The position numbers were made by a program, and so were the translations under genes. A stretch of DNA of 64,000 nt from Oceanobacillus luteolus (GTDB taxonomy: Bacteria > Bacillota > Bacilli > Bacillales > Amphibacillaceae). The notes below the pieces were generated by a model, which saw only the letters and a program-made list of their open reading frames with translations, was not told the origin of the DNA and made no database searches. The stretch spans positions 372,001-436,000 of the forward strand of contig NZ_JAMBON010000001.1 of assembly GCF_023715655.1 (NCBI RefSeq). Reading direction: 5' to 3'. Positions 5,841-38,380 of the stretch are shown in pieces. Every line of letters starts with the position of its first letter. Position 1 is the first letter of the stretch.

Positions 5841-6961
5841 TTTCCATTCTCCATTATCCATTCGCTTATACTTGCAGCAGTTGGTTGAACCAAATCATCT
5901 GGAACATCTTGTCCATTTGTCATATAGGCTATACCGATATTGTTCATCAAACTTATATTTAGAATACTACCGTATTGGCTGGTTTCATCGAGTTTGGTAA
6001 AGATTATTTCCTTCAGTGGAATCTCCTCGAACTGTATGAAAATATCTTGTAAATCCTTTGGCTTCGCAGTAAGAGATAACACCAAATAAGTGGCGATATG
6101 GTCTACGTTTCCCATCAGTTCTTTCAGTTGTTTGATATAGACAGGATTACGGAAGTTCCTACCTGCTGTGTCGACAAGGATAACATCATAGTTAGAAAGT
6201 TTTTGAATGGCTTGTTTGTAATCATCCACATTATAAGCAACCTCAACCGGGATATTAAGAATCCTGGCATAAATTTTTAATTGCTCAATAGCAGCAATTC
6301 GATACGTATCAGTAGTAATGAACGCCACTTTCTTCTGCTTTTTCAGCATAAGTTTAGCGGCAACTTTCGCAATCGTTGTTGTTTTGCCAACTCCTGTCGG
6401 TCCCACAAATTGTACAATTTTGTGTTTTCCGTTAATCCCCTCAGACTCCTTGTCTCTATATTTTTCAGCAATTACTCGTTTAACCTCTGCTTTTATTTCG
6501 TGTTGGGTCACTTCTTCTTTTTTACTTGCCAACAGTCGGACTGTATGTTGAATAATTTCATCAGCAAGCTTCGGATTGACTTCTTGGTCAATGAGCTGAT
6601 GATAGGCTAGCTTATAATCTACCGGTATGTTTAATTCATTGTCAGCCGTTTCAAGTTTAATAACTTCCTTTAAGCTTCTGATTTCTTGAAGAATGGCAAG
6701 GTTAGAATCTACCTCTTCTTTTACTACAGGATTTATTGGAACTGTATCTGTTTTCCGATGCGTTGGTTCGTTCTTCGCATCTTTTATTAAGTCAGGATCT
6801 TTAGCTGCGATGACTTCTATTTTTTTCTTTTGAAACAAGCCAAGAAAACCTTTTTGTTTTATTTCTTTCGATTGAAGAATAACCGCATCCGATCCAAGAT
6901 CTTTTCTAACCTCATTCATTGCTTCAGGCATGGAATCTGAGATATATTTTTTTACCTTCAC
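5837..6961 (-). CDS. flhF: SRP-family GTPase FlhF
   Basis: 374 residues. FlhF marks the position of new flagella. A basic N-terminal B-domain (about 1-80) precedes the N and G domains of signal-recognition-particle-type GTPases. The P-loop GPTGVGKT lies at residues 187-194, followed by DTYRIAA, VDTAGRN and TKLDET. It starts with GTG, overlapping the flhA stop as GTGA, and runs into flhG. Ffh and FtsY, the two other SRP GTPases, are also encoded in this window. Confidence 0.97.
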   Translation of the reverse strand: MKVKKYISDSMPEAMNEVRKDLGSDAVILQSKEIKQKGFLGLFQKKKIEVIAAKDPDLIKDAKNEPTHRKTDTVPINPVVKEEVDSNLAILQEIRSLKEVIKLETADNELNIPVDYKLAYHQLIDQEVNPKLADEIIQHTVRLLASKKEEVTQHEIKAEVKRVIAEKYRDKESEGINGKHKIVQFVGPTGVGKTTTIAKVAAKLMLKKQKKVAFITTDTYRIAAIEQLKIYARILNIPVEVAYNVDDYKQAIQKLSNYDVILVDTAGRNFRNPVYIKQLKELMGNVDHIATYLVLSLTAKPKDLQDIFIQFEEIPLKEIIFTKLDETSQYGSILNISLMNNIGIAYMTNGQDVPDDLVQPTAASISEWIMENGK

Positions 6962-8991
6962 GCAATATTCACCACCCCTAGACTTTGAACCTGCACATCT
7001 GGTTCTAGTTCATTATAGGATAAAACAATAACATGAGGAAGAAAACGGTCAAGCAACTGTTTCAAGTACATTCGAACTGCTGGTGAGCATAGTACAATTG
7101 CTGTTTCTTCCTGTAGTGAAACTTTCTCAGCTTCCTGATGTATGGTTGTAATAATTTCTTGCTGCTTATCTGGATCTAATGATAAAAAATTACCATGTTC
7201 GGTCTGCTGAATGTTCTCGGCAATCAGTTTCTCTACCTTTCCTGAAACAGTGATCACCGGCAGCGTCTTATCTTGTTTCATGTACTGTTTCGTAATTTGT
7301 GCAGATAAGGATTGTCTCACATACTCAGCCAGTAAATCTGTATCATTCGTCATTTTCGAAAAGTCAGCTAACGTCTCGAATATAACTGGAAGATTGCGGA
7401 TGGAAACATTTTCTCTCAGTAACTTGGCAAGTACTTTTTGTACATCACCAACTGCGAGAGGCTCAGGCGTAACCTCTTCGACTAGTATCGGATGACTTTC
7501 TTTCAAGTGGTCAATAAGTTGTTTTGTTTCTTCACGGCCGAGCAATGTATGAGCATGACGTTTGATTACCTCTGTTATATGTGTAGAAACTACTGATGGA
7601 GGATCAACGACCGTATAACCTGAAAGTTCAGCCTCATCTTTAAATTCCTCGTTAATCCACTTTGCAGGCAAGCCAAATGCAGGCTCCTCCGTGTCAATGC
7701 CTTCAATCCCGTCGTCCTCCATATCAGGTGCCATTGCCAAATAGTGATCCAGCATCAATTCACCACCAGCAACTTCATTTCCCTTAATTTTCAGGCGATA
7801 CTCATTTGGGTTCAATTGGATATTATCTCTGATTCGTACAACAGGTATAACCATTCCTAGTTCAATGGCCAACTGTCTGCGAATCATAATAATCCTTTCC
7901 AATAGGTCCCCACCCTGATTTGCATCGGCAAGCGGAATTAGTGCATAACCAAACTCAAATTCAATCGGATCCAGGTTAATTAAGCTGACCACATTTTCGG
8001 GGGCACGCAGTTCTGAGCTTTCTGCTTCATCCAGCTCATCTTCATCCAAATCAGTTGGAATATCAGGTTCTCTTTGCAGCATATAAGCTGTAAATGCTAG
8101 GACACCTGCTATCGTTGTTGTTAGAAAGAAATTAATCGGTGTTAACCCAAGTAGAAAAATCGTTCCGGCCGCTACATATAATAGCTTAGGATATTGAGTC
8201 ATTTGAGTAACAACATCCGCACTTAGATTACTTCCGTCACTCGATCGTGTTACAACGATTGCTGTTGCTGTTGACATGAGCAATGCAGGAATTTGACTAA
8301 CTAATCCGTCACCTACTGTCAGTCGGGTAAATAATTCAACGGATTCACCTATTGAGAGTCCCATCTGAACCATACCAATTATTATTCCAACGATAATATT
8401 GATTAAAACAGTGATAATGGATGCAATTGCATCTCCCTTAACGAATTTACTCGCACCATCCATTGACCCATGGAAATCCGCTTCTTTTTCAATTGTTTTA
8501 CGACGCTCTTTAGCCTCTTGCTCCGTAATAAGACCAGCATTTAGATCTGCATCGACACTCATCTGTTTACCAGGCATCGAATCAAGAGAAAACCTTGCTC
8601 CTACCTCAGAAACACGTTCGGCACCCTTAGTAATTACAATAAAGTTGATAATAACAAGGATAATGAACACCACAAAACCAACAAGCGGATTATCTCCGAT
8701 TACGAAAGAACCAAATGTTTCGACCACTCCACCAGCATCCCCTTCAGAAAGGATTGCTCTTGTAGTGGAAACATTCAAACCTAACCTGAACAAAGTCACC
8801 AGTAAGAGGAGGGTTGGAAAGACGGAGAATTGAAGGACATGCGTCGTATTCATCGCCACTAAAATTACTAAAAGCGAAATACTGATATTCGTAAGGATAA
8901 GTACACTTAAAACTCCTCCCGGAAGCGGGATAACTAGGATTAAAATTATTAAAATAACACCCATTAATACGGTTAAATCACGTGCCTTCAT
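6958..8991 (-). CDS. flhA: flagellar type III export gate protein FlhA
   Basis: 677 residues, the usual FlhA length. The N-terminal half (about 1-310) has eight predicted membrane helices with the conserved charged FHIPEP-type loop (around residues 120-185). The C-terminal half (about 350-677) is the soluble docking platform for chaperone-substrate complexes. It forms the export gate with FlhB, FliP, FliQ and FliR. It lies 23 nt after flhB, with a GGAGGAGA ribosome site. Confidence 0.97.
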   Translation of the reverse strand: MKARDLTVLMGVILIILILVIPLPGGVLSVLILTNISISLLVILVAMNTTHVLQFSVFPTLLLLVTLFRLGLNVSTTRAILSEGDAGGVVETFGSFVIGDNPLVGFVVFIILVIINFIVITKGAERVSEVGARFSLDSMPGKQMSVDADLNAGLITEQEAKERRKTIEKEADFHGSMDGASKFVKGDAIASIITVLINIIVGIIIGMVQMGLSIGESVELFTRLTVGDGLVSQIPALLMSTATAIVVTRSSDGSNLSADVVTQMTQYPKLLYVAAGTIFLLGLTPINFFLTTTIAGVLAFTAYMLQREPDIPTDLDEDELDEAESSELRAPENVVSLINLDPIEFEFGYALIPLADANQGGDLLERIIMIRRQLAIELGMVIPVVRIRDNIQLNPNEYRLKIKGNEVAGGELMLDHYLAMAPDMEDDGIEGIDTEEPAFGLPAKWINEEFKDEAELSGYTVVDPPSVVSTHITEVIKRHAHTLLGREETKQLIDHLKESHPILVEEVTPEPLAVGDVQKVLAKLLRENVSIRNLPVIFETLADFSKMTNDTDLLAEYVRQSLSAQITKQYMKQDKTLPVITVSGKVEKLIAENIQQTEHGNFLSLDPDKQQEIITTIHQEAEKVSLQEETAIVLCSPAVRMYLKQLLDRFLPHVIVLSYNELEPDVQVQSLGVVNIA

Positions 8992-9014: not shown

Positions 9015-10097
9015 TTACACTTTATTCTCTAATTGGTAAACATAAGCCAGAACTTCTGCTACAGCTTGATAAAATTCTTCGGGTATAGATTCCCCGATTT
9101 CAACCATGCCGTATAGAGACCTGGCAAGTGGTTTATCCTCTACGGTAACGACTTGATGCTTTTCAGCAATTTCTCTAATTTTAAGTGCGGTTCTATCCAT
9201 ACCTTTAGCTACTACATATGGTGCTAATGCCTTTTCTTCATCATATTTTAACGCTATTGCATAATGGGTCGGGTTGGTGATGACTACATCAGCTTCTGGC
9301 ACTTCAGCCATCATACGTCTGGTAGCCATCATACGCTGTTGTTCTTTAATCTTAGATTTGATGAGTGGGTCACCCTCCATATTTTTATACTCATCCTTTA
9401 TATCCTGTTTTGACATACGCATATTTTTTTCAAAGTCATAGCGCTGATATAAATAATCGAGTACTGCCAAAAATAAAAGTGCCGCCGTAGCAGCAAACCC
9501 CATAATGATAGCTATCCGGCCAAATAATGACAAAGCATTCTCAGCATTTTTAAATATAAGCATGAGCACTTCATCTTTATACAACCAAATGACAACAAAG
9601 GTGATTGTACCAATAAACGTGATTTTTAATAATGATTTTAACAATTCCACTAACGCTCTTACAGAAAAAATCCGCTTAGCACCTTGAATTGGATCCAATC
9701 TCTTCAAATCAAATTTAAGCGGCTCCGTCGACAATAAGAAGCCCCTGGTTTGAATTAAATTTGAACTGATTCCGGCAATGATTGCAAGCAGCATAATAGG
9801 CGCAAGGATTTTTGCTGCCTCCAAACTTGCCCCATTGAATACATAAGCAACAGATTCACTCGTAACATCCCAGTGTATCAAGTTCGTGAATGCTTCAATA
9901 AATAATAATGTCATCGTCTCCAACATAAAACCGCCAAAAATGAACAGAGCAAACAAACAAAATGTCAACAAGATAACGGTATTTATATCCTGACTTTTTG
10001 CGACTCTTCCTTTTCTCCGCTCATCCTGCCGTTTTTTCGGGGTCGCTTTTTCGGTTTTTTCACCTGAAAAAAACTGTAGATCCATCTTCAATTGCAT
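9015..10097 (-). CDS. flhB: flagellar export switch protein FlhB
   Basis: 360 residues. A basic N-terminus and four membrane helices (about 40-220) lead to a cytoplasmic domain with the self-cleavage site Asn275-Pro276-Thr277-His278. Cleavage between Asn and Pro switches export from rod/hook to filament substrates on a signal from FliK. The ATG at 10097 has GGGGGTG 8 nt upstream, better than the internal ATG at Met5. The cleaved C-terminal half closely resembles YlqH, encoded at 36271-36546. Confidence 0.97.
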   Translation of the reverse strand: MQLKMDLQFFSGEKTEKATPKKRQDERRKGRVAKSQDINTVILLTFCLFALFIFGGFMLETMTLLFIEAFTNLIHWDVTSESVAYVFNGASLEAAKILAPIMLLAIIAGISSNLIQTRGFLLSTEPLKFDLKRLDPIQGAKRIFSVRALVELLKSLLKITFIGTITFVVIWLYKDEVLMLIFKNAENALSLFGRIAIIMGFAATAALLFLAVLDYLYQRYDFEKNMRMSKQDIKDEYKNMEGDPLIKSKIKEQQRMMATRRMMAEVPEADVVITNPTHYAIALKYDEEKALAPYVVAKGMDRTALKIREIAEKHQVVTVEDKPLARSLYGMVEIGESIPEEFYQAVAEVLAYVYQLENKV

Positions 10098-17622: not shown

Positions 17623-19044
17623 CTACACTTTTTCATTGAGAATTAATTCTTCAAACATTTGAGAGAAAGATTGTTCTTCATCTTTATCTTCACCTTCAGA
17701 TGCAGATTGGTGACTCGATGACTGTTCTTGATGTTGATTATCTTCATCATATTGATTCTGTGCTTGTTGAGTCACATTATCTTGCCTTTCAACGACGACC
17801 TGATGTGGTGCAAACATATGCCTTAATTGCTGCATGTTGCCCTCTAACATCTCTTTTGCAACTTTAGTTGTAACCATAATTTTAACAATGATTTCGCCGT
17901 TTACTTGTGTAAATCGCACCATCATTTCCCCAAGATTAGCAGGTCTTAACATAATAGCTAATTGTCCCTTTGGCTGTTGAAGAGCAACCTTATTCACATC
18001 AATCAAACGATTAAATTGCTCCATAAACGATTCAGAACCTAACTTACTTTGACTTCCAACCGCTTGTGGAAGTTGGATGACATGTTGTTCAACGTTGGAT
18101 ATTGGAAGTTGAGCAGGTACTATGTAGGAATTTGCAACCTTTTGGCTATAGGCACCTAAAATTTTCCCTAACCAACGAATCACATCTGTGGTTGTTACCT
18201 CTGATTCCAATGCATATATATTCTTAGTATGTAGATTAGTTTTTTGTTGGTATAGTTGGACAAGTTCTTGCCAAACACTCCTCAATGGAGTATTGCTCTC
18301 TTTCAACGACAACTGAGAAATACCACTTTTACCGTCTATTTGTTGCCAAGCTTCCAAATATCGAAGTAACTTAGGTGCAAGAGTTTCAATATCAGAATCG
18401 TCCCTAATCTGACTTAAAGCCTGCTCGATTTGTGTTAAAAATTGAGCCACACTTTCCTCATTTGGTATTCCTATAGCTTGACTATTAATCTGACTCATAC
18501 TTAACGGTATTAGAAGACTATCATCCATACCGTTTTTGCTACTATCATTGAATAGACTGGAGAACTGCTCGATTGGGTTAATAAAATCTTCCTGCTCTAC
18601 CTCAGGTATCGATCTGAAATAAGTTAGAATTTGTTCTACTAGCTCCCCTTTATTAACTTCAGATAGGCTTTCTTCTTCCATTTTCTCTGAAGACAAATAA
18701 GACTCTATTATACTAAGTAGGTGATTAACATTCTCTATAGACTCACTATAAGATTCTCCCATTACTTCCTTCAACTCTGATAAAAATAATAGAAATTCCG
18801 CTTCCTCAAGCTCCATTAACTTTGAACGGACGTTGCTTAATGATTCTGCCTCAACCGTATTAGTAGCAACTCGTGATATAGGTTCATTACTATTTTTTTT
18901 AGTTAACTTTTCATCAAGTAGATGATGAAAGTTTGACGTTTGGGAGCCACTTTCTGCAGTCGTTGTCGCTTGCTTTTTTTTACCTATAGGAGTGTTCATC
19001 TCTCCCATTGGCCATAATAACATTTTCGCTTGAATTGTATTCAC
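17623..19044 (-). CDS. fliK: flagellar hook-length control protein FliK
   Basis: 473 residues. A long acidic, serine- and glutamine-rich region leads to a C-terminal hook-length control domain (about 340-430) with LRPANLGEMMVRF and GEIIVKIMVTT, then a Gln/Glu/Ser-rich tail. FliK measures hook length and acts on FlhB. The GTG at 19044 nearly abuts a GAGGGGAG site, and the next ATG (Met8) is far from it, so the exact start is uncertain. Variable length is normal for FliK. Confidence 0.93.
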   Translation of the reverse strand: MNTIQAKMLLWPMGEMNTPIGKKKQATTTAESGSQTSNFHHLLDEKLTKKNSNEPISRVATNTVEAESLSNVRSKLMELEEAEFLLFLSELKEVMGESYSESIENVNHLLSIIESYLSSEKMEEESLSEVNKGELVEQILTYFRSIPEVEQEDFINPIEQFSSLFNDSSKNGMDDSLLIPLSMSQINSQAIGIPNEESVAQFLTQIEQALSQIRDDSDIETLAPKLLRYLEAWQQIDGKSGISQLSLKESNTPLRSVWQELVQLYQQKTNLHTKNIYALESEVTTTDVIRWLGKILGAYSQKVANSYIVPAQLPISNVEQHVIQLPQAVGSQSKLGSESFMEQFNRLIDVNKVALQQPKGQLAIMLRPANLGEMMVRFTQVNGEIIVKIMVTTKVAKEMLEGNMQQLRHMFAPHQVVVERQDNVTQQAQNQYDEDNQHQEQSSSHQSASEGEDKDEEQSFSQMFEELILNEKV

Positions 19045-36270: not shown

Positions 36271-36546
36271 TCACTCTTTATCTTCCAATTGTTTATCTGT
36301 TTCATAGATAAAAGCGAATACTTCAGCGACAACTTGATAAAGTTCCTCAGGTATATATTCATTCACATTCAATTCAGCCAATAGCTCTACTAATGAGGAA
36401 TCTTCAACGACTGGGATATCATGCTGATCAGCAAGTTTAATAATTTCTTCAGCGATATATCCTTTTCCAGCTGCACTTACAAATGGAGCGGAGTCCTTAT
36501 CTTTGTTATAACGTAGGCTCACGGCCTTCCTTTGGCTTTCCATCAT
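36271..36546 (-). CDS. ylqH: YlqH, FlhB C-terminal-domain-like protein
   Basis: 91 residues. Residues 7-85 align with the cleaved C-terminal half of FlhB: KAVSLRY against YAIALKY, then APFVSAAGKG, a VVEDSSL segment against VTVEDKPL, and YIPEELYQVVAEVFAFIY against SIPEEFYQAVAEVLAYVY. It has no membrane region and no NPTH cleavage site, so it looks like a ready-cleaved FlhB C-terminal fragment. Similar FhlX/FlhX proteins can replace that fragment in other flagellated bacteria. The ATG overlaps the ylqG stop. Confidence 0.92.
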   Translation of the reverse strand: MMESQRKAVSLRYNKDKDSAPFVSAAGKGYIAEEIIKLADQHDIPVVEDSSLVELLAELNVNEYIPEELYQVVAEVFAFIYETDKQLEDKE

Positions 36547-38366
36547 ATACGAAAATCCACCCCCTGGCTATCATCCCTGCGATATGCTTCTTGACCGATA
36601 GAATGCTTCTCCTTCTCTTTCAACTTTCTAAATTGAATAGAAGATAGCCGATAATTTAAAGCGTCCAGACCTGTTTCAAGTTTTTCTTTAAATTGTTTCG
36701 AAATGACTGGAAGACCTTTTGTATTATTAAAAACAGTAATTGCCACAGCCCGTTGTTGGATGTTTACATCAATCACCGTCTCTTTAAGCTTCTCTAATTC
36801 TAGGTAAAAAATGATTCGACAGTAATCAGGGTCAATTTCTCCATCTTCATTTTTCTTACCTTCGAATTCAAGGGCGAGATCATTGACGAGCCCCAATCTT
36901 TCTGCAGGAAGCTGCAGAGCAGCCTGTACAAAAGTTGCCGTATCATTGACGCTTTGTATTTGTACTCCTTGAATGACGTTAAGTAATCTTGAATACTGAT
37001 CCTGGCTGATATACTCCTGTCCTCCTATTAGCTGGAGTAACAATCCTTTTATCGTCTGTTGTAAGTTACTGGGAACCTTCTCAGTTACCAAGCGATGTTC
37101 ATAGTCCAAACCCAACATTGTATATGATTGGCGGATATGCTCAATAAACTTCTCTTTCGTAGAGAGTTCCAAAAAGTTCTCTTGTTCCATCGTGGTCCTT
37201 GCTAAGCGTAATATATGATCCAGATGCTCCCCATTATTTAATGCTTGCAACCCTCGGTATACAGCTAAAATATTTTGCTGTGATTGAAGTAGAGAATTTA
37301 AAGTTTGATGGTGGTTTTGCGGAATAAAAGGAAAAATGTGCTGTTTCAACTCGCTTTGCAATGAATTCAATAACTCACCTGATAATGCGTTTCCTGTTGC
37401 TTGTTGAAGCATGATTCTCGGAGTCCATTTATCTAGGAATAATTGCACTGCTTTCGTAAATTCGTTTCTTCGTGAATCGATATGATAAAATACCCGCAGA
37501 ATATCTCGGTCATTCAATTGAATAGGGAGTTGATTAGTGGGATTAGTTAGATTTTTTCCCGTAAAATGACTCCATTCTTTGACCCATGTTGTAAAGTCCA
37601 CCTTATGTGAAATAAAGCCTAAACCTTTTAAGATCCGATACATCGCATCGTTATTAGATTTATTTTGGGTGTTGATATATTGTAATAATCCATCCCGAAA
37701 GCTCACTGGCTTTTCAGTTAATTTATCAATCATTTCAAGCAGTTGCCGCTCCGTGTTGACAAAATGTCTGTCTAAATTCCTCCTATTTTCACTAGTAAGA
37801 AAGTTCAAGTTAGAAGAGGAATGCTCCTTTAAGGCAGTCAATTCCTCACTAATACTTGTCGACTTGCTAGCTAAAAGAGACTGAAAAGTAGATTCAGTAA
37901 TCGGCAACTTTTTTAAAATCATTTCAAATAAAACCATGGAAACCAATCCACTATTTTTCTCCCCCTTTAGGAGTTGAATAGCGGATTGAAGCTCAGCTTT
38001 ATCAAAAGGTATAGCATAATTTGTAAGCAGTTGCAGCAACTGCAAATTTTGCTTTGAGCTCTTAATTCCAAGACTTTTTAATAGTTTGGCTAAATTGGTT
38101 GTTTCTTCTCTTTTCAATTGGTCTCCAAGCACTCTTAATTGCAGCATACTTGCATTTGCAGTAACCTGAAAATGATATCTTGCTCCAAGCTCTAATCCAA
38201 CCTCTAGCTTGGCAACAAAACGGTTTCCACCAAGACTGATTTCAGCCTTATTTTCCGGATAAAGTTTTAGTACTTTCCCCTGAATGATTTGACCTGAACG
38301 GAGTGGTACTGGACCATTGCGTATTGGATTTAAAGAGGGCATGTTTGATACTTTGGAAAAATGCAA
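36543..38366 (-). CDS. ylqG: YlqG, large protein with a FliK-like C-terminal segment
   Basis: 607 residues, no signal peptide or membrane segment. It starts with TTG at 38366 with GGAGG 8 nt upstream. An N-terminal beta-rich part (about 15-85, GQIIQGKVLKLYPENKAEI) is followed by a long helical Gln/Leu-rich region. Residues about 500-585 (DYCRIIFYLELEKLKE, then AVAITVFN and ETGLDALNYRLSSIQFRKL) look like the strand-helix pattern of the FliK hook-length-control domain. The B. subtilis orthologue has no firm function. The gene is coupled to ylqH. Confidence 0.85.
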   Translation of the reverse strand: MHFSKVSNMPSLNPIRNGPVPLRSGQIIQGKVLKLYPENKAEISLGGNRFVAKLEVGLELGARYHFQVTANASMLQLRVLGDQLKREETTNLAKLLKSLGIKSSKQNLQLLQLLTNYAIPFDKAELQSAIQLLKGEKNSGLVSMVLFEMILKKLPITESTFQSLLASKSTSISEELTALKEHSSSNLNFLTSENRRNLDRHFVNTERQLLEMIDKLTEKPVSFRDGLLQYINTQNKSNNDAMYRILKGLGFISHKVDFTTWVKEWSHFTGKNLTNPTNQLPIQLNDRDILRVFYHIDSRRNEFTKAVQLFLDKWTPRIMLQQATGNALSGELLNSLQSELKQHIFPFIPQNHHQTLNSLLQSQQNILAVYRGLQALNNGEHLDHILRLARTTMEQENFLELSTKEKFIEHIRQSYTMLGLDYEHRLVTEKVPSNLQQTIKGLLLQLIGGQEYISQDQYSRLLNVIQGVQIQSVNDTATFVQAALQLPAERLGLVNDLALEFEGKKNEDGEIDPDYCRIIFYLELEKLKETVIDVNIQQRAVAITVFNNTKGLPVISKQFKEKLETGLDALNYRLSSIQFRKLKEKEKHSIGQEAYRRDDSQGVDFRI

Positions 38367-38380
38367 TGGTGAAACCTCCT

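Follow-up and report, generated by a model that had tools for sequence, protein, structure and literature searches.

The 64,000-nucleotide stretch of Oceanobacillus luteolus DNA analysed here (the window) encodes two overlapping genes on its minus strand, ylqG and ylqH, under names and in a gene order that we take to be those of Bacillus subtilis. Both open reading frames (ORFs), as called in an earlier reading made from the sequence alone, are indeed present: ylqG (36543-38366) codes for 607 amino acids from a TTG start preceded by AGGAGG (38375-38380), and ylqH (36271-36546) for a 91-amino-acid, stand-alone protein of the FlhB C-terminal (FlhB_CC/FlhX) type. The stop codon of the first gene and the start codon of the second share the tetranucleotide ATGA (36543-36546), an overlap that makes translational coupling plausible. 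Three segments can be delineated in YlqG, all on the minus strand: an N-terminal domain (residues 16-190; 37797-38321), predicted to form an OB-like barrel; a T3S4-type domain, that is, a switch domain of the FliK/PscP type (residues 489-582; 36621-36902), outlined by a profile of relatives and the predicted fold; and the C-terminal pentapeptide VDFRI (36546-36560), a FliK-like end by the tail pattern described below. The pair is flanked by rnhB and sucC, outside the fla/che operon. FliK and FlhB are the two proteins by which a growing flagellum passes from building its hook to building its filament. We consider it probable that YlqG and YlqH constitute a second, membrane-free FliK/FlhB_CC pair acting at the flagellar export gate; the composition of the pair is well supported, its flagellar role is likely, and contact, export and timing are inferred.

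YlqH and YlqG compared with FlhB and FliK

The FlhB proper of the window (9015-10097, minus strand, 360 amino acids; PF01312 positions 1-335, E 5.2e-132) provides the reference for YlqH. As the sequence-only reading had it, YlqH corresponds to the post-cleavage half of this protein, with 35 identities over 84 residues (42%; E 3e-17) and coverage of positions 262-335 of the 335 of PF01312 (E 4.9e-20), and differs from FlhB/SctU in having neither the membrane domain nor the NPTH autocleavage site, a motif found in none of 248 stand-alone relatives. When YlqH is aligned with the cleaved FlhB chains of two crystal structures, its residue 8 falls on their residue 5, which places the protein in the register of FlhB_CC. 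The pocket of FlhB where early substrates dock consists of A286, P287, A341 and L344 (PMC9307174). Among 163 YlqH proteins, these positions hold A in 150, P in 163, A in 150 and F or L in 89 and 72, respectively; in 73 proteins of a second version, described below, they hold A in only 38, P in 73, A in 73 and L in 69. In the alignment, YlqH is one residue shorter than FlhB, and an arginine that is invariant in 31 FlhB is replaced by glutamate in 81% of YlqH. YlqH equals cleaved FlhB_CC in size and register and retains most of the substrate-docking pocket; the FlhB-type half of the proposed pair is supported by sequence.

Closely comparable to YlqH are the FlhX/flhB_rel proteins (TIGR00789; HP1575 of Helicobacter pylori), likewise stand-alone FlhB_CC domains in genomes that also encode FlhB. 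YlqH differs from them in scoring below the curated cut-off of that model (106.6 bits against 117.35, E 5.6e-31), a cut-off passed by only 7 of the 398 genomes of our class sample. In a tree built from 88 columns of 58 sampled rows, with three long-branched rows left out, one branch (support 100/99, the bootstrap being not fully settled) separates 43 stand-alone domains from 15 FlhB_CC (14 from Bacilli, one from Escherichia coli), as expected of a lineage distinct from FlhB; an earlier quick tree, with the long-branched rows in and E. coli out, likewise set FlhB apart.

The likeness of YlqG to FliK becomes visible only through relatives and the predicted fold. With the window protein alone, Pfam gave no PF02120 match and NCBIfam no FliK match, a PF02120 search of its genome found nothing at the place of YlqG at E <= 1, BLASTP against the FliK proper of the window (17623-19044, minus strand, 473 amino acids ending in LNEKV; PF02120 49.4 bits, above the cut-off) gave no meaningful match, and phmmer against the PDB returned chance matches only. 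The expected PF02120 match is thus missing for this single protein but is recovered for its family, 68 of 122 relatives matching at E <= 0.01, so that at the family level the C-terminus does have a FliK profile match; one of the 122 matches HpaP. A profile search of the PDB placed FliK (2rrl) first at an E of only 0.024, tied with a rotavirus protein (0.027) that we take to be a chance match, and hhalign put the probability at 26% despite an E of 7e-4. By eye, the FliK-like pattern had been placed at about residues 500-585; the structure prediction, highly confident here, sets the segment at residues 497-582, and the FliK and PscP switch domains, 5cuk of PscP among them, rank at the top of the matches to this fold with middling scores.

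The very C-terminus carries a further likeness, a hydrophobic-[DN]-x-x-[VI] pattern: E. coli K-12 FliK ends in GVDIFA, and YlqG of the window in GVDFRI. The pattern is found in 154 of 164 YlqG of the main pair set (which includes a few second-version genes), in 67 of 68 named second-version loci, in 6 of 9 proteins from other named loci and in 11 of 18 FliK from the order of the window's genome, against a background of 11 in 1209 other ORFs of at least 200 amino acids. A 2026 paper proposes that the last five residues of FliK act on, and eject, FlhB_CC (PMC13344023). Family profile, predicted fold and tail together support the FliK-type half of the pair; compared with the injectisome switch proteins PscP/YscP and HpaP, YlqG differs in that its putative partner is a free FlhB_CC.

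The N-terminal domain sets YlqG apart from FliK. AlphaFold2 predicts it as a five-strand OB-like barrel with six helices at a pLDDT (predicted local distance difference test) of 91.5, and Foldseek retrieves S1/OB proteins with modest scores (best E 3e-4). An iterated hidden Markov model (HMM) of this domain recovers 96 of 98 YlqG but none of 18 FliK, even at E <= 10, and matches 69 of 80 named loci at E <= 1; DUF6240 matches 14 of 84 members. YlqG is therefore not simply a second FliK; rather, it joins two switch parts of FliK, the T3S4 fold and the pentapeptide tail, to a different N-terminal domain, and in the window it lies outside the fla/che operon and coexists with FliK.

Distribution and neighbourhood of the pair

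Loci were chosen for a match to YlqG, FlhB or TIGR00789; about 120 rows of the class sample were listed without a locus, and 100 were fetched, near relatives being left out. The fetched loci contain 168 distinct pairs, 139 of which show the same four-base overlap as in the window. An HMM detects the YlqG C-terminal domain in 164; of the four misses (L173, L178, L180 and L228, not included in the tail count), some seem to stem from picking the wrong one of several overlapping frames or from a frame that is split. One diverged pair, whose YlqH-type score is only 32 bits (L068 of genome G045; 6444-6722 and 6704-8419, minus strand), lies among ORFs that, by eye, look like late flagellar genes. No natural YlqG-YlqH fusion is evident from the frame lengths inspected, among which no dedicated search was made.

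The pair occurs almost only alongside FlhB. Among 58 relatives of the window's genome, 54 have a YlqG match (G055 in the second version only); of the other four, two lack FlhA, and two possess it with just one match to the FlhB family. In the order sample, FlhB-family matches are present in 194 of 199 genomes, with one match in 18 and three in 62 by hand count. In the class sample, 277 of the 398 genomes match TIGR00789 at E <= 1e-10; a hand count gave at least two matches in 247 and one in 30. In 29 of these 30 the match is weak and taken for FlhB by itself. The strong one belongs to G586, which has FlhA and a YlqH-like gene with no other TIGR00789 match and no flagellin match, perhaps a case of a reduced flagellum.

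The neighbours of the pair are housekeeping genes: of 95 pairs, 88 have rnhB nearby and 86 have yraN or sucC. This setting would suit a job outside the flagellum, for instance, one on nucleic acid through the OB-like domain, for which Foldseek ranks mainly RNA-binding proteins highest, and so would genome G086 (99% complete, 7% contamination), in which the pair is intact, behind rnhB and near a contig end, and no FlhA, FlhB or flagellin match was found. This exception could reflect recent loss of flagella, contamination, an assembly gap or indeed another function. The co-occurrence with the FlhB family, the place of the second version beside flagellin genes and the situation in Campylobacterota all support a tie to flagella, and we consider a non-flagellar job quite improbable.

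The flagellin cluster and other phyla

Some genomes hold another overlapping pair of the YlqG/YlqH type. From a scan with five such second-version pairs, the best 80 of 96 loci were named, some in genomes shared with the earlier set. In 67 of the 68 that represent this version (L237-L304), the order is YlqG-type gene, YlqH-type gene, FliS, flagellin, the exception being Brevibacillus borstelensis (L289); fliS in L284 and the YlqG-type gene in L285 each came out as two ORFs. Pfam confirmed FliS in three loci tested and flagellin in one. The species include Alkalihalophilus pseudofirmus OF4, Halalkalibacterium halodurans, Cytobacillus firmus and Geobacillus, and the YlqG-type ORFs range from about 650 to 2222 amino acids with both ends conserved. 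A published flagellin locus of Geobacillus, with flaA1, an additional fliS and an flhB (PMC5109656), is apparently the same cluster; the word FliK is absent from the main text of that paper. In the window's own genome, outside the window (G000:C109:23597-24310), the flagellin N-terminal model matches two frames (positions 1-68 and 68-137) not far from an intact flagellin match, as if a second flagellin gene were broken.

In the second-version loci, the 300 bases upstream contain a site resembling the sigma-D consensus for 26 of 63 YlqG-type genes, 41 of 71 fliS and 5 of 99 flagellin genes, compared with 4 of 502 other ORFs. In the main pair set, they precede 5 of 127 YlqG genes and 11 of 712 other ORFs; of those five, at least two are second-version loci and a third is the diverged L068. 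These counts bear on the possibility that the two proteins act as a soluble decoy, with YlqG holding YlqH or competing with FliK for FlhB_CC and thereby delaying or sharpening the switch before hook completion. Both partners do copy the FliK/FlhB contact without the membrane part, and the minus strand of the window shows no sigma-D-like site, as early, low expression would have it; however, the second version often has such a late promoter ahead of fliS and flagellin, that is, after the expected switch, and we regard the decoy as somewhat unlikely.

The other 12 named loci (L305-L316) have a FliK-like gene close upstream in every case, nine by HMM and three judged from the ORF, its tail and its position; in one of the latter, two ORFs separate the genes; L307 is a first-version pair from Bacillaceae. 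All eight FliK-like genes tested match PF02120 at E <= 0.01, two above the cut-off, and full-length FlhB is encoded in all six genomes searched, both genes lying within about 10 kb in three. In a Thiomicrospira metagenome-assembled genome (L311, 2830-3506), two ORFs that by eye are CheY-like and STAS-like separate the FliK-like and FlhB_CC-like genes.

A hand count found two TIGR00789 matches each in 73 of 81 genomes of Campylobacterota. The 30 best FlhX loci include 20 with a long upstream ORF ending in a YlqG-like tail, strict in only eight (eleven end in [DN]-x-x-A and one in E-x-x-A). The YlqG HMM matches only four of these 20 and the bacillar FliK HMM none; PF02120 scores above its cut-off in all eight tested. 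Each of the seven genomes sampled with a pair encodes two FliK-domain proteins, one of them next to FlhX. In nine further loci the neighbour is instead an ORF of 209-231 amino acids, of the lumazine-binding (riboflavin synthase) type in both cases tested; the last locus, ambiguous to our script, has a 487-amino-acid ORF. Three sampled genomes with a 209-amino-acid neighbour have a single FliK-domain gene, and there FlhX shows no sign of the FliK-like partner that YlqH has.

Such genomes would fit a dispensable relic or spare part of little effect, as does the lack of the pair in some flagellates, for instance G052 and G057; the title of a study of H. pylori HP1575 reportedly presents FlhX as a spare part. 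Against this, the pocket, the tail and the gene overlap are conserved beyond single families and phyla, which is unexpected for a relic, and this explanation appears unlikely.

A putative role at the export gate

The proposal that YlqG and YlqH copy the contact of the flagellar switch is partly supported: in its FliK-type half by profile, fold and tail, in its FlhB-type half by sequence, and in its tie to flagella by co-occurrence. By analogy with FliK and FlhB_CC, the YlqG C-terminus would bind YlqH, and the two would act at the flagellar export gate. Several observations weigh against this second-pair reading. Foldseek finds no match to the YlqG C-terminal fold reaching E 0.001, VIA scores are middling with an unrelated DUF1089 protein tying with the switch domains, and PF02120, searched against the H. 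halodurans and A. pseudofirmus genomes, misses their YlqG, as it does two full-length second-version proteins. The window's ylqG lies between rnhB and sucC, not in the hook/basal body operon, with no sigma-D-like site on its strand. The 29 single-match genomes of the 277 in the class have an FlhB-like match only and apparently no YlqH, and FlhA was confirmed in all four checked (G195, G219, G247 and G251); G086 presents the converse case. Covariation between the YlqG C-terminus and YlqH in 238 pairs exceeds that in ten shuffled pairings, but the top pairs are scattered and shared descent explains the signal equally well. Finally, deletion of fliK in B. thuringiensis abolishes filaments (PMC7775485), and therefore nothing replaces FliK there, which would bear on the pair if that strain carries it.

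Within the second-pair reading, we tentatively suggest that, after FliK ejects FlhB_CC, YlqH, under the control of YlqG, might take or guard the vacated site, so that the gate would stay in filament mode. More doubtful is the extension of this scheme to a dedicated post-switch module in many flagellated bacteria, in which a YlqH/FlhX protein governed by a YlqG-type protein would re-seat at the gate and keep or reset export specificity, the late-promoter copy of alkaliphilic bacilli and Geobacillus being made together with its own FliS and flagellin.

Stand-alone FlhB_CC domains (FlhX/flhB_rel) were known before, FlhX is already counted as export-associated in surveys (PMC9321776 and PMC10746217), and the former names flhX-fliK as one locus in Nitratiruptor. 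As far as the literature searched shows, three points are new: the recognition of YlqG as a FliK-like partner that ends in the switch tail, the frequency of the pairing and its spread over several phyla, and the late-promoter version next to fliS and flagellin; searches on YlqG/YlqH, FlhX, FlhB paralogues and second FliK-like copies found no study of the function of the pair, ylqG being recorded as a point variant (PMC11523185). The mechanism of the flagellar switch is under active study (for example, PMC13344023). If many flagellated bacilli and Campylobacterota indeed pair a second FliK-like tail with a free FlhB_CC, the identity of the gate occupant after ejection would become a testable matter, and FlhX, the titular spare part, would gain a partner and a reason to exist.
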